Shown piece after piece: positions 49,702-57,584 of a stretch of DNA of 64,000 bases. The position numbers were made by a program, and so were the translations under genes. Source of the stretch: Sulfuricystis multivorans (lineage in GTDB: Bacteria > Pseudomonadota > Gammaproteobacteria > Burkholderiales > Rhodocyclaceae); assembly GCF_003966565.1 (NCBI RefSeq), contig NZ_AP018718.1, forward strand, positions 372,001 through 436,000. Direction: 5' to 3'. Position 1 is the stretch's first letter. The number at the start of each line of letters is the position of its first letter. Below the pieces are notes generated by a model. It did not search any database and was not told where the DNA came from. It worked only from the letters and a program-made list of their open reading frames with translations.

Positions 49702-51417
49702 TTACGCCAGCCCAGGATTGCCCGCCACTCCGATCAGCCGCGGCGAATTGAGCTTGCGCGGGGTGACGGTCTTCTTCTCGCGCAGCCAGCGGGCGACGAC
49801 TTCCCAGATCGGCTCGCCCGAGGCGCCCTCGCCGACCGGTGCCCAGCCGGCGACCTTGTATTTCTTGTTCGGATCGAGCGGCTGACCCTTTACGCGCATG
49901 TCCTGGATACGATTGCCCATCTTCTCGTTCGGCGCGCAGGCGTAAGCGAGCCCGCCGACGCGCACCATGTCGCCACCCTGCTGCTTGTAGGGATCGGGGT
50001 TGAACAGGTTGTCGCAGACGTCTTCGAGGATGTCCTTGATCTGCACGCCGGTCATCTCGGTCAATGTCGAGTAGGGATAGGTGATCGCCGTCTGGTCCAT
50101 CAGGTGCTCGAAGGTGATCGCCTCTCCCGGCAGGATCGTCGTGCCCCAGCGAAAGCCCGGCGAGAAGGCGATGTCGGCGCCTTTGCCCTCCATCATCGCA
50201 TCGAGGATCAGCTGGTCCCACGAGCCGTTGAAGTTGCCGCGCCGATAGAGCAACCCTTCCGAGACGGCGAGCTTTTCCTGCAACTTATCGAGATGCGGCG
50301 CGCGAATCTTTTCGATCAGCGCGGCCATCTCGGCATCCGCGGGCAACAGGTTCGAAAACACCGGCAATAGCTTGTAACGGAAATCGACGACTTTGCCGGC
50401 TTTGACATCGAAATCGAGCACGCCGAGGAACTTGCCGTTCGAGCCGGCATTGGTGACCAGTGTCACACCTTGGGCATTCTTCACCTTGACCGGCTGCGGC
50501 ACGCCGTCGTGGGTGTGGCCGCCGAAGATCGCATCGATGCCGGTAACGCGCGAAGCAAGCTTCAGATCGACGTCCATGCCGTTGTGCGAGAGCACCACGA
50601 CCACTTGCGCGCCGGCTGCGCGTGCCTCATCGACGACCTTCTGCATCTCTTCGTCCTGGATGCCGAAAGTCCATTCCGGCACCAGGTAGCGCGGGTTGGC
50701 GATCGGCGTGTAGGGAAACGACTGGCCGATCACCGCGACTTTGACACCGTTCATTTCGCGCAGGCTGTAAGGCTTGAAGACCGGATCACCAAAGTCGGCG
50801 GTCTTGACGTTCTGGGCGACGAAATCGATCTTGCCGGCAAAATCCTTCTCGACGACCTCCTTGACGCGCTTGTCGCCATAGGTGTATTCCCAGTGGCCGG
50901 TCATCACGTCGACGGCGAGCAGCTTGCAGGCATCGACCATGTCCTGGCCCTTGCTCCACAAGGCCGTAGCCGAGCCCTGCCAGGTGTCGCCGCCGTCGAG
51001 CAGCAGCGCGCCGGGGCGGCTCGCCCTCAGCTGCTTGACGAGGGTGGCCAGATGCGCAAAGCCGCCGACCTTGCCGTAGGTTTTCGCCGCTTGCACGAAA
51101 TCGAGATAGGTGAAGGCGTGCGCCTCGCGGCTGCCGGCTTTGATGCCATAGGCTTTCAAGAGCTTCTCGCCGACCAGATGCGGCGTCTTGCCCTGCATGC
51201 TGCCCACGCCGAGATTGACGTCCGGCTCACGGAACCAGATCGGCAGCAGTTGCGCGTGGCAGTCGGTGAAATGCAGGAAATGCACGTTGCCGAAACGCGG
51301 CAGATCGTAGAACCTCTCACCGCCCTGTGCGGCAAGCAGTGAGCGGGAGTCCAGCACGAAGCCGGCAGCGGATGCGGCCGCAAGAACCTGCATGAACTCG
51401 CGTCGGTTCATGGACAT
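49702..51417 (-). CDS. soxB: Sulfur-oxidation protein SoxB (sulfate thiohydrolase)
   Basis: 571 residues with an N-terminal twin-arginine-type signal (MNRREFMQVLAAASAAG). The 5'-nucleotidase-like dimanganese site is HFLHFTDCHAQLLP, LLDGGDTWQGSATALWSKGQ, TGHWEYTYG, LSHNGMDVD and IFGGHTHDGVP, all intact. SoxB releases sulfate from the SoxY-bound S-sulfonate in the periplasm. It closes the soxYZAXB series, 47 bp after soxX. No soxCD follows, so oxidation of the SoxY sulfane sulfur must use another route. Confidence 0.97.
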   Translation of the reverse strand: MSMNRREFMQVLAAASAAGFVLDSRSLLAAQGGERFYDLPRFGNVHFLHFTDCHAQLLPIWFREPDVNLGVGSMQGKTPHLVGEKLLKAYGIKAGSREAHAFTYLDFVQAAKTYGKVGGFAHLATLVKQLRASRPGALLLDGGDTWQGSATALWSKGQDMVDACKLLAVDVMTGHWEYTYGDKRVKEVVEKDFAGKIDFVAQNVKTADFGDPVFKPYSLREMNGVKVAVIGQSFPYTPIANPRYLVPEWTFGIQDEEMQKVVDEARAAGAQVVVVLSHNGMDVDLKLASRVTGIDAIFGGHTHDGVPQPVKVKNAQGVTLVTNAGSNGKFLGVLDFDVKAGKVVDFRYKLLPVFSNLLPADAEMAALIEKIRAPHLDKLQEKLAVSEGLLYRRGNFNGSWDQLILDAMMEGKGADIAFSPGFRWGTTILPGEAITFEHLMDQTAITYPYSTLTEMTGVQIKDILEDVCDNLFNPDPYKQQGGDMVRVGGLAYACAPNEKMGNRIQDMRVKGQPLDPNKKYKVAGWAPVGEGASGEPIWEVVARWLREKKTVTPRKLNSPRLIGVAGNPGLA

Positions 51418-51464: not shown

Positions 51465-52082
51465 TTATTTATTGACCGGCGACTCCGGATCGAGCAGCAG
51501 CGCGACCAGATCCTTGATCTGCTCGGGCGCCAGGGCACCGACGCGACCGAAGCGCGGCATCTCCGAGCACAGGTTGTAGGCCTTCGCGTTATAGATCTTC
51601 GAATAGACGTATTTCTGCGTCTCCGGGGTGTTGCCGCGCAGCTTGCCGAAATTGAGCAGGCTCGGCCCGATCGTGCCGAAGGCGACCTCCTTCGGACTGA
51701 TCTGGTGACAGTTGTAGCAGTTGCCGCCGACCGGCAGGCCCGGCTTGTCTCTCCAGGTAAAGCCGCGGCCGCTTTGCGCCAGTTTCTCGCCTTTCTTCCA
51801 GTCACCCATCAGCTTGCCGTCGGCCGGCCATTCGACCGTGGCCAACTGATCCGCCTCGAGCGCCTTGGCGATCGCTTCGGGCGGATGGTTGCCGGTGCGG
51901 TTGCAGATCGCCTGCACGCCGTCTTCGGCCAGCCGGTCGAGGCTGGCCTGACCGCGGGGCTTGAAATCTTTCTTGATCATCGCGATCGCCTTGGCGCGAT
52001 AGTCGGCATCGGCCCGGGCGGGCAGGCTCGCGGTCAGGAAAGGCAGGGCCGCGCAAGCGGCCAGGATGATGTTGCGGTTCAT
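51465..52082 (-). CDS. soxX: Sulfur-oxidation c-type cytochrome SoxX
   Basis: 205 residues with a Sec signal (ILAACAALPFLTASLPARA). One heme site CYNCH lies at 122-126 and the distal methionine is likely in LCSEMPRFG near 175. It is longer than the Paracoccus form, with an N-terminal extension like the Starkeya type. With SoxA it joins thiosulfate to the SoxY cysteine, passing electrons on. It lies 21 bp downstream of soxA. Confidence 0.95.
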   Translation of the reverse strand: MNRNIILAACAALPFLTASLPARADADYRAKAIAMIKKDFKPRGQASLDRLAEDGVQAICNRTGNHPPEAIAKALEADQLATVEWPADGKLMGDWKKGEKLAQSGRGFTWRDKPGLPVGGNCYNCHQISPKEVAFGTIGPSLLNFGKLRGNTPETQKYVYSKIYNAKAYNLCSEMPRFGRVGALAPEQIKDLVALLLDPESPVNK

Positions 52083-52103: not shown

Positions 52104-52937
52104 TCAGCGCTTGATGCCCGGCCCCTTATAGACCACGCCGTTGGCGTTGGCGGTCATGTAGGTCAGCAAGGCGGTGATGGTATCCGAAGCGTATTTCGGC
52201 TCGGGAAAACGCTGCTGACGGAAGCAGTCGTTCATGCGCCACTGCAGGGTCAGTGCCACGCCGCCGGTCATGCGCCAGGCCGGCCAGCCCATCACCGCCT
52301 TGGTCGCGCCCTCTTTGCTGTTGATGTTCGGCAGATCCTGCATGCGGATGCGTTTGCCATCGACGCCGTGGCAGGTGCTGCAGGCGAAGTCATAGGGGCC
52401 GGCGCGGTAATGCGCGACCTCCTTGCCGATTTCATAGACCTCGCGCACTTTCGGGTCTTTCAGGTTCACCGCGAAAGGCTTGCCGCGCGAATGGCCGGCG
52501 ACATACATCACCAGGTTGGTGATGTCCGGCGCGCTGCTGTCATTGGGACTCTGGAAGGGCTTCTTGGCGATGTCCGCGAACTTGAAGCCCTGCTTTTCGA
52601 CCATGCACCAGACGATGCGCCGCTCGGCATCCATTACCGCGTCGGCATCCTTGAAATAGCGCGGCATCTGCACATAGGCGCCTTCCAGCTTGCCGATGCC
52701 CAGACCCAAGTCACAGCTTTCGGCAAGTGAGACGTTCTTGGGCCCGCGTTTCGCTTTCCACAGCTCTTCGCCTTTCAGCTCGTTGAGCTCGGCCGGGTTA
52801 CTGTCTTCCATTTCGGCGCGGAACTTCTCGAATTCCTTGGCTGCTTTCGCGTGATCGATGTTGTCCGCCGTCTGCGCGCAAAGGCTGCCTGCGACGGCGA
52901 AGGCGCAAAGGGCGCCGAGGGTGTGGCGGATTTTCAT
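52104..52937 (-). CDS. soxA: Sulfur-oxidation cytochrome SoxA, mono-heme type
   Basis: 277 residues from the ATG at 52937, preceded by the strong ribosome site AGGAGG; longer frames upstream are antisense artefacts of soxZ. A Sec signal ends near AQTA. Only one heme motif, CSTCH at 186-190, is present; in the N-terminal half Cys75 and Cys111 replace the second heme, likely as a disulfide. Cys238 in MNDCFRQQRFPEP is the expected catalytic, persulfide-modified heme ligand. It catalyses thiosulfate-SoxY conjugation with SoxX. Confidence 0.95.
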   Translation of the reverse strand: MKIRHTLGALCAFAVAGSLCAQTADNIDHAKAAKEFEKFRAEMEDSNPAELNELKGEELWKAKRGPKNVSLAESCDLGLGIGKLEGAYVQMPRYFKDADAVMDAERRIVWCMVEKQGFKFADIAKKPFQSPNDSSAPDITNLVMYVAGHSRGKPFAVNLKDPKVREVYEIGKEVAHYRAGPYDFACSTCHGVDGKRIRMQDLPNINSKEGATKAVMGWPAWRMTGGVALTLQWRMNDCFRQQRFPEPKYASDTITALLTYMTANANGVVYKGPGIKR

Positions 52938-52972: not shown

Positions 52973-53781
52973 GCTCACGCCACGGTGGCCTCGTCGGTTC
53001 TGGAGTCGCCTTTGTTGTCTTTCCAGGAGACGGTGACTTTGTCGCCGGATTTGGCGCCCTTGACCTTGAAGCCGAGGACGGGGTTACGGGAGACGGAGCC
53101 GGCGAGCTGACCGGAGACGACGGTTTTGCCATTGAGGGCGACGGAGACGAGCTGGATGTGATGGGCGGGGATGGTTTTGCCGTCGTTGTCCTTGCGCTGG
53201 CCGGTCTCCATCGGGTGGGACATGAGGACGCGGATTTCGCAGACGTCGCCCTTCATTTGGGCGCGGATTTTCATTGGATCAGCCATGATGGGATTCCTTT
53301 GCGTGAAGGAGGGAAGCGATGTTCAGCCGCCGCAGCCGCCGACGGTGACCTTGACCTCTTTCTGGGTGGAAAAGGTCTTGCCGTCGGCCTTGGCGATGGC
53401 GATGATCGGACAGGTTTCGGCGACCTTGAGGCGGATCGAGACGTCGGGCAAGGCGCCGTTCGAGAACTCGAAGTAGGCGGCGAGCGGGAAGGGGTTTTTC
53501 TTCACCAGGATGGCGATCGAGGAGGTATTGGGGATGTTGCTGACGACATCGACGGGGACGACGGCGCCGTTTTCGGCTATGTCGGGGGCCTTCATGACGA
53601 GAGAGGCATTGGCGCTGGCACCGTCGGCGCCGATGGTTTTCAGGGCGACGTCGAGGTCCTTGGCGCCGAAGGCGGCGGCGTTCCATTCATTGGCATAGGC
53701 GAGCGTCGGCTTGAGCATGCCGGTGGCCAACAGACCGGCCAGCACGCCCGTCGCCCCCGCTCCTTTGAGTACCGTCCTGCG
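52973..53781. repeat. soxYZ direct repeat, copy 1 (809 bp)
   Basis: This segment is identical to 55195-56003, offset 2222 bp. Identity begins 2 bp before the soxZ stop and ends inside the fifth codon of soxY. Past that edge the copies differ by synonymous changes and by the leader sequence. Confidence 0.9.
52975..53286 (-). CDS. soxZ: Sulfur carrier complex protein SoxZ, copy 1
   Basis: 103 residues, beta-sandwich type (MKIRAQMKGDVCEIRVLMSH, METGQRKDNDGKTIPAHHIQ, NPVLGFKVKGAKSGDKV). It has no signal peptide; it is exported folded with SoxY by the Tat route. SoxYZ carries the sulfur intermediates on the SoxY C-terminal cysteine. This copy lies 36 bp after soxY copy 1 and 37 bp before soxA. 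It is identical in protein and DNA to the copy at 55.2 kb. Confidence 0.96.
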   Translation of the reverse strand: MADPMKIRAQMKGDVCEIRVLMSHPMETGQRKDNDGKTIPAHHIQLVSVALNGKTVVSGQLAGSVSRNPVLGFKVKGAKSGDKVTVSWKDNKGDSRTDEATVA

Positions 53782-53793
53782 GATCAAATCCAT
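53323..53793 (-). CDS. soxY: Sulfur carrier protein SoxY, copy 1
   Basis: 156 residues. The N-terminus MDLIRRTVLKGAGATGVLAG is a twin-arginine signal. The immunoglobulin-like body ends in the swinging arm VTVGGCGG with the sulfur-binding Cys154. The start follows AGGAGA. It lies 30 bp downstream of the anti-sigma gene, with no promoter visible, so it should be transcribed with the sigma/anti-sigma pair. Codons 3-4 differ synonymously from copy 2; the rest is identical. Confidence 0.96.
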   Translation of the reverse strand: MDLIRRTVLKGAGATGVLAGLLATGMLKPTLAYANEWNAAAFGAKDLDVALKTIGADGASANASLVMKAPDIAENGAVVPVDVVSNIPNTSSIAILVKKNPFPLAAYFEFSNGALPDVSIRLKVAETCPIIAIAKADGKTFSTQKEVKVTVGGCGG

Positions 53794-53823: not shown

Positions 53824-54522
53824 TCAGGATTGCAAGTAACGCCAACCTTGGGTCAGGCGGGCGGAAAGTTCGCTCTCGGCGGAGGCGGCTTCCTCGACGC
53901 CGGGCAGCAGATTCACTTCGAGGCCGCGCTCCTGCATGCGTGCGATCGCTTCGCGACAGGCAACGAGTCGCAGGTTCGCATGCCGACGGCGCAGCGCTTC
54001 GACGCGTTCGGCATATGGCGAGCCGCCTTGGCGCAGAAGATGTAGCCCCGGGCCGTTGGCGAGGAATTCGACGCGGAATGGGCGGCCTTGGGTGTCCCGA
54101 GCCGAGGCAAGCTGCTCGGCCATGCGTAGAGCCGCTTCCATGCGCGCCGGTTCGTCGGAAAAGAGGTGCAGCACGACGCGGCCGCCTTCGCTACGGATCG
54201 CCTCGATCTGGCGCTCCAGTTGCCGGTCGGCGTCAAAACGGTCGTTGGCAAACCAGCCGGAGATCGCGCCTACCGCGACGAACAGGGAGGCCGCCAGCGC
54301 GTGTGGCCAGCCACCGAACGAGCCGCTACTGGGGCCGCTCTTTGTATCCTTGCGGCGGGGCAGCGGAAAGGCGCCGCGCACCATCTGCTTGAGCTGCCAG
54401 AGCTCGCAGGCCCGCGCACGCAGCGCAGCGTCGCTGGCAATCCGTTCCTGGATCGTCGCGCGCTCGGTGGCGTCGAGCTCGTTGTCGATGTAGGCGCCGA
54501 GGATTTCGTCGGAGATTTCCAT
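53824..54522 (-). CDS. Transmembrane anti-sigma factor fused to a DsrE/DsrF-like domain
   Basis: 232 residues. Residues 1-52 look like an anti-sigma domain (ILGAYIDNELDATERATIQE, ALRARACELWQLKQMVRGAF) without the zinc HxxxCxxC. One membrane helix lies at 73-91. Residues 114-231 match the DsrE/DsrF-like pattern: VVLHLFSDEPARMEAAL, FRVEFLANGPGLHLL, LRLVACREAIARMQERGLEV, LLPGVEEA and a final LTQGWRYL. Cys189 sits where this family keeps its sulfur-accepting cysteine. N-in topology puts this domain in the periplasm. It starts 1 bp after the ECF sigma stop. Sensing of sulfane sulfur is inferred; the domain match is by eye. Confidence 0.8.
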   Translation of the reverse strand: MEISDEILGAYIDNELDATERATIQERIASDAALRARACELWQLKQMVRGAFPLPRRKDTKSGPSSGSFGGWPHALAASLFVAVGAISGWFANDRFDADRQLERQIEAIRSEGGRVVLHLFSDEPARMEAALRMAEQLASARDTQGRPFRVEFLANGPGLHLLRQGGSPYAERVEALRRRHANLRLVACREAIARMQERGLEVNLLPGVEEAASAESELSARLTQGWRYLQS

Positions 54523-54523
54523 C

Positions 54524-55090
54524 CTAGCCTCTCAATCGATGTACTACGGCGGTCGTCGTCCGTGTCGCTTGCGGCTCGCGCAAGGCTTCGCGCAGACTGG
54601 CACGGGCGCGCGACAGGCGGCTCATCACCGTGCCGATCGGGATTTGCAGTATCGCTGCGACCTCGGCATAGGAAAACTCTTCGAGATCGACGAGGGTGAC
54701 GACTTCGCGTTGGCCGGGTGGTAGATTGCCGACGGCCGAGCGCACCCGCCGGACGACCTCGTTTTTCAGGCAATCTTCCTCGGGGCAGTCGGCGGCGGGC
54801 AGCTCGCGTTCTTCGACGGCGTCGATGTCGAGGGTCTCCTTTCCGGCGCGCAGATGGTCATGCCAGCAATTCGCCAGGATGCTGCACAGCCAGGCATGCA
54901 TCGCCTCCGGATCGCGTAACTGGCTGTGGCGATCGAGCGCCTTGGCGAGCGTTTCCTGCACCAGATCGTCGGCCAGCGCGCGATTACGGCACCAGGAATG
55001 AGCCAGCCGCCACAAGCGGCAACGGCTCGTTTCGAGCTTCGCTTCGAACTGGCGCGAACGACCGATGAACGGGAACAGGCTCACGGACAC
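54524..55090 (-). CDS. ECF-family RNA polymerase sigma factor in the sox locus
   Basis: 188 residues. Region 2 is RLWRLAHSWCRNRALADDLVQETLAKALDRH and region 4 is LPPGQREVVTLVDLEEFSYA plus IPIGTVMSRLSRAR, the DNA-binding helix. No other sigma regions are present, as in ECF factors. The start is GTG at 55090; a GTG two codons later (55084) has better spacing from GAGAAGA. Its 3' neighbour is the anti-sigma protein, and an ECF-type promoter stands 24 bp upstream. Cys24, Cys34 and Cys69 are also present. Its regulon probably includes the sox genes downstream. Confidence 0.92.
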   Translation of the reverse strand: MSVSLFPFIGRSRQFEAKLETSRCRLWRLAHSWCRNRALADDLVQETLAKALDRHSQLRDPEAMHAWLCSILANCWHDHLRAGKETLDIDAVEERELPAADCPEEDCLKNEVVRRVRSAVGNLPPGQREVVTLVDLEEFSYAEVAAILQIPIGTVMSRLSRARASLREALREPQATRTTTAVVHRLRG

Positions 55091-55113: not shown

Positions 55114-55144
55114 TTTAAGACGCATTGGTGCGGCGGTTTATTCC
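55114..55144 (-). promoter_or_regulatory. ECF-type promoter of the sigma/anti-sigma/sox operon
   Basis: On the minus strand GGAATAA (55144-55138) and CGTC (55122-55119, followed by TTAAA) are 15 bp apart, i.e. GGAAT-N17-CGTC, the classic ECF -35/-10 geometry. Transcription would start near 55110, about 20 nt before the sigma start codon. I found no second GGAATAA/CGTC pair at this spacing ahead of other sox genes. Autoregulation is inferred. Confidence 0.65.
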
Positions 55145-55194: not shown

Positions 55195-56003
55195 GCTCAC
55201 GCCACGGTGGCCTCGTCGGTTCTGGAGTCGCCTTTGTTGTCTTTCCAGGAGACGGTGACTTTGTCGCCGGATTTGGCGCCCTTGACCTTGAAGCCGAGGA
55301 CGGGGTTACGGGAGACGGAGCCGGCGAGCTGACCGGAGACGACGGTTTTGCCATTGAGGGCGACGGAGACGAGCTGGATGTGATGGGCGGGGATGGTTTT
55401 GCCGTCGTTGTCCTTGCGCTGGCCGGTCTCCATCGGGTGGGACATGAGGACGCGGATTTCGCAGACGTCGCCCTTCATTTGGGCGCGGATTTTCATTGGA
55501 TCAGCCATGATGGGATTCCTTTGCGTGAAGGAGGGAAGCGATGTTCAGCCGCCGCAGCCGCCGACGGTGACCTTGACCTCTTTCTGGGTGGAAAAGGTCT
55601 TGCCGTCGGCCTTGGCGATGGCGATGATCGGACAGGTTTCGGCGACCTTGAGGCGGATCGAGACGTCGGGCAAGGCGCCGTTCGAGAACTCGAAGTAGGC
55701 GGCGAGCGGGAAGGGGTTTTTCTTCACCAGGATGGCGATCGAGGAGGTATTGGGGATGTTGCTGACGACATCGACGGGGACGACGGCGCCGTTTTCGGCT
55801 ATGTCGGGGGCCTTCATGACGAGAGAGGCATTGGCGCTGGCACCGTCGGCGCCGATGGTTTTCAGGGCGACGTCGAGGTCCTTGGCGCCGAAGGCGGCGG
55901 CGTTCCATTCATTGGCATAGGCGAGCGTCGGCTTGAGCATGCCGGTGGCCAACAGACCGGCCAGCACGCCCGTCGCCCCCGCTCCTTTGAGTACCGTCCT
56001 GCG
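55195..56003. repeat. soxYZ direct repeat, copy 2 (809 bp)
   Basis: Second member of the identical pair with 52973-53781, same orientation. The left edge lies 2 bp outside the soxZ stop and the right edge within the fifth codon of soxY. The intergenic soxY-soxZ spacer is identical too, which points to recent duplication or gene conversion. Confidence 0.9.
55197..55508 (-). CDS. soxZ: Sulfur carrier complex protein SoxZ, copy 2
   Basis: 103 residues, identical to copy 1 in protein and DNA (body PAHHIQLVSVALNGKTVVSG). It is followed by a 106-bp gap that carries the ECF promoter and then the sigma gene. Upstream is soxY copy 2, 36 bp away. Having the pair both before and after the regulators means soxYZ can be made from two promoters. 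Confidence 0.96.
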   Translation of the reverse strand: MADPMKIRAQMKGDVCEIRVLMSHPMETGQRKDNDGKTIPAHHIQLVSVALNGKTVVSGQLAGSVSRNPVLGFKVKGAKSGDKVTVSWKDNKGDSRTDEATVA

Positions 56004-56015
56004 AATCAGATCCAT
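55545..56015 (-). CDS. soxY: Sulfur carrier protein SoxY, copy 2
   Basis: 156 residues, identical in protein to copy 1, with the Tat signal RRTVLKG and the C-terminal GGCGG arm. Its first codons differ synonymously (CTG ATT in place of TTG ATC). The leader AGGAGACTCACAG differs from that of copy 1. It lies 31 bp downstream of the YeeE/YedE transporter gene, so it probably belongs to that transcript. Confidence 0.96.
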   Translation of the reverse strand: MDLIRRTVLKGAGATGVLAGLLATGMLKPTLAYANEWNAAAFGAKDLDVALKTIGADGASANASLVMKAPDIAENGAVVPVDVVSNIPNTSSIAILVKKNPFPLAAYFEFSNGALPDVSIRLKVAETCPIIAIAKADGKTFSTQKEVKVTVGGCGG

Positions 56016-56046: not shown

Positions 56047-57147
56047 TCAAGCCTCGCGCATCATGCGCCAGTATTGGAATTTCATCGTCGCGGCCGCTCC
56101 TGCGATGATCGCCACGAGCGTCAGAATCGAACCGAGTGCCAACGTCGAGACCCCGGTGATACCCTGACCGATCGTGCAACCCATCGATAATACCCCGCCG
56201 ATGCCCATCAGTACCGCACCGATCGCGTGGTTGAGGAAATCGCCCACCGAGACGAACCACTCGATGCGGAAGCCGCGCGAGAGCATCGCCCAGAGGAAGG
56301 AACCGAAGATCACGCCGAACAACGCGACGATGCCGAAATTGATCAGGGAGAAATCCCGGGGGTTCATCAGATAGCGTGCGGCATCTCCCATCGGGCTGAT
56401 GAAGGTAAAGGATTGGGTCTCGACTCGCAGCGGTTTGGTATCGGCAAAGTCGGCCCACTCTTTCCATTCGGCGCCCATCGGGCCGCCAGTGACATACCAG
56501 CCGGCGATGACGATCAGGCCGATGCCGATCCCGGCCAAAACGTTGTCGCGGTTGGTGCGGAAATCGCGTGCGGCAAAGGCGAAGGCGATCAGGGCAAGCG
56601 CCACGATCAGACCGGCAATGGTATTGCCCAGGCCGGTGAGGTCGCCGAGCGTCTGGCTTTTGAAACCGCGTGCGGCAAGGTCGATCGTGGTCGGCGCGAT
56701 CCAGCGGCCGAACGCGTCGTTGTAGAAGTTCGTCCACAGCATCGCATAGGCGCACAACGCGGCGATGACGAGAACCACCAGCGATTTGAGATTGCCCGCG
56801 CCGATGCGCACCGCGGTCTTGTTGCCGCAGCCCGACGCCAGCGTCATGCCAATGCCGAACATGAAGCCGCCCAGCAAGTAACGCAGCCAGGCAAACTGGG
56901 CCGTGCGATAGGGCGGAAAGGTGCCGCTGGCGAGATTGAGCTTGCCCATCGCCTCGAGCGCGACGACCCCGAGCATCGCCACTGCGCCGGCCAGCAGCCA
57001 GGCGCGCAGGCGACCCGTGTCGCCCATGTTGACCCAGTCCGAGACGGCACCCATGGTGCAGAAGTTGGTTTTGTTGGCCAACATGCCCAGTGCCGTCGCC
57101 AGGACGAAAGCGACCAGCAATACCTGATGATGGATCGTGAATTCCAC
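56047..57147 (-). CDS. YeeE/YedE-family (TsuA-like) sulfur-compound transporter
   Basis: 366 residues from GTG 57147, chosen because GGAGGAGG stands 7-14 bp upstream and the product begins MEFTIHHQVLLVAFV. About nine or more hydrophobic helices are seen. The conserved cysteine motifs of the thiosulfate channel TsuA are all present: NKTNFCTMG (Cys30), ASGCGNKT (Cys107) and SMGCTIGQG (Cys324). The family takes up thiosulfate or moves sulfane sulfur. It is the first gene of the sox locus, so import of thiosulfate or a sulfur intermediate is likely. The 161 bp upstream (57148-57308) shows no clear promoter. Confidence 0.9.
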   Translation of the reverse strand: MEFTIHHQVLLVAFVLATALGMLANKTNFCTMGAVSDWVNMGDTGRLRAWLLAGAVAMLGVVALEAMGKLNLASGTFPPYRTAQFAWLRYLLGGFMFGIGMTLASGCGNKTAVRIGAGNLKSLVVLVIAALCAYAMLWTNFYNDAFGRWIAPTTIDLAARGFKSQTLGDLTGLGNTIAGLIVALALIAFAFAARDFRTNRDNVLAGIGIGLIVIAGWYVTGGPMGAEWKEWADFADTKPLRVETQSFTFISPMGDAARYLMNPRDFSLINFGIVALFGVIFGSFLWAMLSRGFRIEWFVSVGDFLNHAIGAVLMGIGGVLSMGCTIGQGITGVSTLALGSILTLVAIIAGAAATMKFQYWRMMREA

Positions 57148-57312
57148 GTTTCGACCTCCTCCAGTCTTGTTTGTTTTTGCCGGCAGGGTGCGCGCTGAAC
57201 GAGACGCCACGCATGAGGGCTCTTCGTTGCATGCCGCCTGATGCATCTCGCTTTCGCGGGTGCGCAAGCCGCACACATGAAGCCGGTCGTGTCCGAATTG
57301 TAATGAGTTTAG

Positions 57313-57584
57313 GGAAACGCTGAATAAGTTGCTGCGCGGGCGCATCGCTGCGTTGCGCGGTGTTGGCTTCGGCCGCTTCGCTTAACCTCGGCAAAGCCAA
57401 AGTGAGCCTTCGCCGCAACTTCGTTGTCGCTCCCTCGCCTAACTCCATGTTATGTGGTTCCGGCATAACTTGCGCTTCGCTCCTGTTAGCCTGCACCGAA
57501 ACTTCGCCTTCGGCTCGTTTTCTCGGTCGCTGCGCACCAAACGCCTTGCGCTGCATCCCGCTCGCGGCCTTCTTCAGCGTTTCC
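57313..57584. mobile_element. MITE-like element at the queC stop codon, IS5-type features
   Basis: A 272-bp segment has inverted ends GGAAACGCTGAA (57313-57324; right arm 57573-57584), extended by a further AAG after one mismatch. It is flanked by the 4-bp direct repeat TTAG (57309-57312 and 57585-57588), which fits the YTAR target of IS5-family elements. No transposase is encoded. The right TTAG holds the queC stop codon. The inside has many short direct motifs (CTTCGCT, CGCCT) and no gene. Confidence 0.75.

Follow-up and report, generated by a model that had tools for sequence, protein, structure and literature searches.

An ECF sigma factor paired with an anti-sigma/DsrE fusion protein as a predicted regulator of sox and secreted DsrE genes

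In the sox operon of Sulfuricystis multivorans, the gene for an ECF sigma factor is followed by one for a protein of the transmembrane anti-sigma type whose C-terminus is DsrE/DsrF-like by profile and by fold. The prediction that this pair controls sox and DsrE genes is well supported by computation. The architecture of the fusion protein also suggests how control might be exerted, and on balance we favour a transmembrane sulfur-responsive switch, in which loading of Cys189 with sulfur would free the sigma factor to drive its own operon together with a secreted DsrE gene.

All of the features described here lie on the reverse strand of the window, that is, the whole stretch of 64,000 nucleotides that was analysed (contig NZ_AP018718.1, positions 372,001 to 436,000). 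The sigma gene (54524..55090) encodes 188 residues from a GTG codon, and an alternative GTG two codons inward agrees with the start in a sister genome. In a Pfam scan the protein matched Sigma70_r2 (9.7e-11) and r4_2 (3.1e-17), both above cut-off, with no match for region 3, which is the ECF layout of regions 2 and 4 only. The fusion gene (53824..54522, 232 residues from ATG) starts 1 nt past the sigma stop codon, and its end is separated by 30 nt from the start of soxY (53323..53793; TIGR04488, 149.3 bits, cut-off 125). Downstream are soxZ (52975..53286; TIGR04490, 130.8 bits, cut-off 76), soxA (52104..52937; TIGR04484, 217.7 bits, cut-off 110; start set by eye from the signal peptide, the mechanical open reading frame extending to 53132), soxX (51465..52082; TIGR04485, 83.7 bits, cut-off 61) and soxB (49702..51417; TIGR04486, 898.3 bits, cut-off 550). 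Open reading frames, Pfam and TIGRFAM therefore agree with the first-pass annotation, which had placed a sigma gene directly followed by a 232-residue fusion within a sox operon. The gene spacing suggests a single transcript from the sigma gene through soxB, and a predicted autoregulatory ECF promoter, GGAATAA-N15-CGTCT (55118..55144), an exact match located 27 nt before the sigma start, would also head the downstream sox genes.

Upstream of the sigma gene is a second soxYZ copy (55197..56015), with 99.76% identity to the first over 819 nt, and upstream of this copy a Sulf_transp membrane protein (YeeE/SoxT-like; PF04143, 1.6e-57) is encoded in the open reading frame 56047..57345, its real start, judged by eye, probably lying within that frame. 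A relative of this protein has the promoter motif ahead of it in another genome. The sigma pair lies between two soxYZ copies both in the window (52975-53793 and 55197-56015) and in locus L023 (7154-7975 and 9389-10210); the copies share 99.3-99.8% identity inside each genome, whereas identity between the two species is only about 92%, which suggests gene conversion between the copies.

The fusion protein consists of a putative anti-sigma domain at about residues 1-51, a membrane and stalk helix at 72-111 and a DsrE domain at 115-231. Its AlphaFold model (pLDDT 91.8) is helical over residues 5-51, has one long helix from 72 to 111 and an alpha/beta domain from 115 to 231, in which Cys189 sits at the end of a strand; the pTM of 0.64 is consistent with a loose connection of the domains through the helix. 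At the N-terminus, Pfam gave a weak zf-HC2 match below the cut-off over residues 6-25 (E 0.025), and further weak matches were to NF052375 (0.025) and, using a 55-sequence profile, to MucA/RseA N-termini (0.054). The position of the gene next to that of the sigma factor and the single membrane helix point to a protein of the transmembrane anti-sigma type, which would be expected to bind the sigma factor. The DsrE relationship is visible by profiles and structure only: scanned by itself with Pfam and NCBIfam the window fusion gave no DsrE match, and none of the four fusion sequences scanned singly in all matched Pfam DsrE. The 55-sequence profile, on the other hand, matched the PDB entries 1L1S (1.3e-16) and 2PD2 (2e-8) over the C-terminal half, and hhalign aligned this half with standalone DsrE proteins (99.7%, 2.9e-25, 118 columns), cysteine on cysteine. 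A Foldseek search with the model placed 1L1S and 2PD2 at the top (target TM 0.87 each), followed by 8UJA, 3PNX, 2QS7, 2HY5 and 3PNX again, which are named DsrE types, 2HY5 being a chain of DsrEFH; five matches had E <= 0.001. The PDB titles of 1L1S and 2PD2 call them hypothetical proteins, which we take to be DsrE-family members. The DsrE-like C-terminus proposed at first reading is thus upheld by profiles and, in the fold check suggested for it, by AlphaFold and Foldseek.

All sequences compared (81 of 81) have Cys189, which is also kept without exception in a 13-genome alignment and in the 55-sequence alignment, and it aligns with the invariant cysteine of 25 standalone DsrE proteins, in line with its earlier assignment to the expected acceptor site. 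The hydrophobic peak of the fusion covers residues 74-92. Of 80 homologues, 69 have Lys and Arg residues on its flanks in a distribution that favours an N-terminus-in orientation and 3 have the reverse distribution, and by net charge the corresponding numbers are 74 and 2; the flanks of the window fusion carry four Lys/Arg each, with net charges of +3 and -2. The standalone DsrE homologues, among which all five tested (four and a further one) passed PF02635, begin with stretches that look by eye like signal peptides. Because of this charge bias and of the signal-peptide-like starts, the DsrE domain of the fusion is probably periplasmic, the orientation that had been expected at first reading.

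A scan of genome contigs, with a pattern that lay in the anti-sigma N-terminus, yielded 245 relatives, and the best 80 of these were studied and checked for full length. All 80 loci read as full-length, although a contig end removes the first residues of L114, and their sources include Rhodocyclaceae, Sulfuricella, Sulfuritalea, Thiobacillus, Hydrogenophilus, Sulfuriferula, Thiohalobacter and Guyparkeria; Sulfuriferula multivorans and Sulfurisoma sediminicola are among the named species with the pair. Directly upstream of the fusion, 79 of them have a sigma homologue, and the eightieth is truncated by a contig end. Within 6 kb, sox genes were found in 19 of these best 80 of 245 loci and a standalone DsrE gene, mostly divergent from the sigma gene, in 50, with both present in 7 and neither in 18 (many of these on short contigs), counts that are not independent because many of the loci are closely related. 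The notion that the pair is confined to the sox operon was accordingly rejected. The survey for fusions next to sox that the first-pass annotation had called for did find such loci, but in a minority; the standalone secreted DsrE proteins, which it overlooked, are the commoner neighbour and a predicted target. On the tree of these loci the sox label requires 5 changes, or 4 after removal of the 18 loci that have neither kind of neighbour, and sox linkage has therefore been gained or lost several times. Another recurrent feature of the neighbourhood is an outer-membrane-like protein of about 460 residues, recognised by eye near the pair in 26 of the 80 loci (for example, L053 5311-6717); a similar-looking gene in L150 has the motif ahead of it and its product no Pfam match.

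Among 150 genomes of the family, matches were found in 21 and full-length relatives in 13, window included, and these 13 overlap with the 80 loci (for example, L035/G025, L036/G080 and L091/G046); the pair is beside sox in the window and six others, and the remaining six have a nearby standalone DsrE gene. At the level of the class, 66 of 369 genomes encode a full-length fusion, and SoxY was found in 58 of these 66 versus 131 of the 303 others (p 7e-12), a SoxY match being absent from the other 8 fusion genomes. A draw of 398 genomes from the phylum contained 2 with a match at E <= 1e-40, of which the window's genome was one. Several genomes (G281, G229 and G354) have two or three full-length fusion paralogues, and tandem fusion pairs occur in G259:C22 and G376:C26; such paralogues are possibly for different sulfur donors.

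The promoter motif was derived de novo from 80 upstream regions, those of 79 loci and of the window, many of them from close relatives. Among spaced pairs, enrichment was highest for GGAAT/CGTCT at 17 nt (43 of 80 regions) and for its reverse complement (33 of 80). In the strict form GGAAT-N17-CGTC, the motif points to the sigma gene in 64 of the 80 regions, and 42 of the 50 with a DsrE neighbour have it pointing to the divergent gene; it is absent before the sigma gene in 16 regions, five of which have a spacer shorter by one base while two are cut by a contig end. The 2.8 Mb genome to which the window belongs has exactly two GGAATAA-N15-CGTCT sites, one before the window sigma gene and one 46 nt upstream of a secreted DsrE gene that is not linked to the pair, as well as two further sites with spacers of 14 and 16. 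An origin of the motif by chance was rejected, the reversed pattern being found in none of the 80 regions and at no site in the 13 fusion genomes; elsewhere this control gave 11 sites in 150 genomes, and 2 sites in ten class genomes versus 11 true ones. The motif contains the published promoter core of SmRpoE4 and SnSigE, for which the -35 GGAAT/-10 CGTC consensus was experimentally mapped, with reporter assays (PMC6527743). The Sinorhizobium precedent of a response to sulfite, which the first-pass annotation had named for RpoE1/RpoE4, is real. By its promoter core GGAAT/CGTC, the window sigma factor is a candidate member of ECF26.

Whole-genome searches with the motif gave a set of predicted targets. 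Each of the 13 family genomes with a fusion has at least one site, and the 27 sites in total precede the sigma gene (10), secreted DsrE genes (8), soxY (3), a YeiH-type transporter gene (3) and other genes (3), five of the eight secreted DsrE sites being distant from the pair or on another contig. Ten fusion-bearing class genomes outside the family, chosen for contiguity and not for content, comprise eight with a site and two without an exact one; their 11 sites precede the sigma gene (5), soxB (2), soxX (1) and genes for a sulfur transporter (1), a thioredoxin-like protein (1) and an outer-membrane-like protein (1), the last with no Pfam match. Downstream genes were mostly identified by eye from their translations, and profiles were used to check both SoxB proteins, SoxX, one SoxY, one YeiH, the sulfur transporter, the thioredoxin-like protein and four of the eight DsrE proteins (L118, L124, L131 and L138). 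One membrane-protein family has the motif ahead in three genomes (L123, L129 and L135), and the L123 protein has a match to the YeiH family of putative sulfate exporters and is a possible sulfur-oxyanion exporter of the regulon.

The 137 other genomes of the family, in which absence of the fusion was judged from a single-protein search, contain the site in 11 cases versus 13 of 13 for the fusion genomes (Fisher p 1.4e-12); the search was repeated with the profile for 11 of the 137. Secreted DsrE genes lie behind two of these sites, L161 (G126:C68:15139-15165) and L163 (G041:C33:91899-91925), and neither genome yielded a full-length fusion; in G126, which is of the window's own genus, no close sigma factor was found either. 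Another, in G124, precedes the gene for a small secreted protein about 500 nt from a further ECF sigma gene. This sigma factor (L164 and L177, G124:C17:27663-28655) has 45% identity to that of the window. In G103 the site precedes a gene for a protein that resembles lipoprotein-15 by eye, and the remaining seven sites, again judged by eye, are probably due to chance, although the one in G084 is 55 nt before an outer-membrane-like protein's gene. Exclusivity of the motif to the fusion system was consequently rejected, and because sites occur in genomes in which no full-length fusion was found the motif is considered to belong to a wider group of sigma factors.

These predictions can be assembled into a working model. 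When reduced sulfur is lacking, the anti-sigma domain would keep the sigma factor at the membrane. A rise in periplasmic sulfane sulfur would lead to loading of Cys189 to give a persulfide or thiosulfonate, with SoxYZ, a secreted DsrE protein or the sulfur compound itself as the donor, and the loaded domain would then either shift its contacts through the stalk helix or expose this helix to proteolysis. The sigma factor so freed would transcribe its own operon, which in the window is sigma-antisigma-soxYZ-AXB, and would act in trans on the secreted DsrE gene, which would make the sensor a copy of the carrier type that is under the switch's own control. The first-pass annotation had likewise proposed for the pair a sulfur-operated sigma switch for sox genes. 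The control of the genes by the sigma factor is now predicted from motifs before the sigma gene, secreted dsrE, soxY, soxB and soxX, while we infer that sulfur on Cys189 would be the signal for release. A wider proposal, to which we would give slightly less than an even chance, is that the fusions form a hitherto undescribed class of outward-facing sulfur sensors in sulfur-oxidising Beta- and Gammaproteobacteria, in which a membrane-bound DsrE copy, charged by SoxYZ or a secreted carrier, monitors the periplasmic flux of bound sulfur and adjusts the expression of sox and carrier genes accordingly, and in which paralogues may read different donors.

Other readings of the same data have to be weighed against the sulfur switch. 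The DsrE domain might serve as a docking module that takes up no sulfur of its own and instead binds SoxYZ or a secreted DsrE protein as a heteromer, so that the loading or abundance of the partner sets release of the sigma factor, possibly as negative feedback. DsrE, DsrF and DsrH pair with one another, and DsrEFH is built from homologous subunits; a chain of this complex (2HY5) is among the Foldseek matches to the fusion, and the gene most often found near the fusion encodes a standalone protein homologous to its DsrE domain. Mere docking would nevertheless have no need of a cysteine that is invariant in 81 of 81 sequences, and we regard this reading as somewhat unlikely. The single invariant cysteine would suit several modifications, and Cys189 might instead be modified by sulfite (S-sulfonation) or by an oxidant, induction of sox and dsrE then being a detoxifying response rather than one to sulfane sulfur. 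Sinorhizobium and Starkeya sigma factors with the same promoter core do respond to sulfite. The predicted targets of the fusion family are, however, mainly sigma, thiosulfate-oxidation and DsrE genes, none of the 38 genes downstream of motif sites reads as a sulfite oxidase and the structures nearest to the domain are of the DsrE type, so sulfite or redox sensing appears unlikely.

A different kind of doubt concerns the link between this sigma factor and its targets. The motif might mark ECF26-like sigma factors in general, with another of these driving the sox and dsrE sites, as could be argued from the sites before secreted DsrE genes in G126 and G041 and from the occurrence of the same core in alphaproteobacteria. 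The strong association of site and fusion (13 of 13 against 11 of 137 genomes) and the location of the window site directly before the window sigma gene make this improbable. Finally, ECF/anti-sigma pairs are common and 18 of the 80 loci have neither sox nor DsrE nearby, and the pair could conceivably be a general envelope-stress system with a passive DsrE fold that sits beside sox by accident. Given the repeated linkage to sox and DsrE genes on the tree, the nature of the promoter targets and the association with SoxY, such an accident is very hard to credit. The sulfur switch remains the reading that we favour, and under it the secreted DsrE proteins, sharing a regulon with sox, have a predicted role in periplasmic sulfur handling.

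How does the pair compare with known systems? The C-terminus of the fusion has both its fold and its conserved cysteine in common with DsrE/DsrF-like proteins (PF02635; 3PNX, 2QS7 and the DsrEFH entry 2HY5). DsrEFH and its kin are, however, soluble carriers in the cytoplasm, whereas the fusion is a membrane anti-sigma protein with a domain that is probably periplasmic. In the RsgI anti-sigma factors of Clostridium thermocellum, too, the type of the outer sensor domain recurs among the proteins under their control, but these factors sense polysaccharides, with domains unrelated to that of the fusion. No description of an anti-sigma/DsrE protein was found in literature searches that covered few subscription papers, in agreement with the first-pass annotation, which knew of none; the novelty is ECF/anti-sigma signalling with a putative DsrE sensor domain, the pairing of ECF and anti-sigma factors being itself well known.

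The closest parallels are the ECF26 systems SmRpoE4-SMc04050 and SnSigE, which share with the window pair an ECF sigma gene accompanied by an anti-sigma gene, the GGAAT/CGTC core, control by sulfur compounds and linkage to sulfur-oxidation enzymes (PMC3511301; PMC6527743). ECF26 anti-sigma factors are described there as mostly of the COG5662 type (PMC3511301); the C-terminus of the window protein has the DsrE fold. The targets of SmRpoE4 and SnSigE are sulfite oxidases, not sox (PMC6527743), whereas sox and DsrE genes are predicted for the window family. The available text of these two papers mentions no DsrE domain in describing ECF26 anti-sigma factors, the sole match to the term in PMC3511301 being a reference that names DsRed, and the part seen of PMC10512742 is unrelated to an anti-sigma/DsrE protein. 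For SmRpoE4 and SnSigE the signal is sulfite, and release occurs by "an as yet unknown mechanism", in the wording of that report (PMC6527743). The fusion family supplies a named domain, one candidate residue, a promoter sequence and a list of genes, so that a single point mutant together with a reporter would allow the question of release by sulfur to be tested. Control of sulfur-oxidation genes in response to sulfur, as proposed here, is also exerted by the ArsR-type sulfane-sulfur repressors SoxR and sHdrR, alongside SoxT transporters, and one of these reports describes the sensing of external sulfur by regulators as poorly understood (PMC10451225; PMC12423496; PMC11582611, the last for the sensing). 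In those sources SoxR and sHdrR act as repressors in the cytoplasm and SoxT imports the sulfur, whereas the fusion would sense sulfur on the outer face of the membrane, with a sigma factor as output; if the sulfur switch is correct, it offers a testable answer to how cells might sense the sulfur outside.
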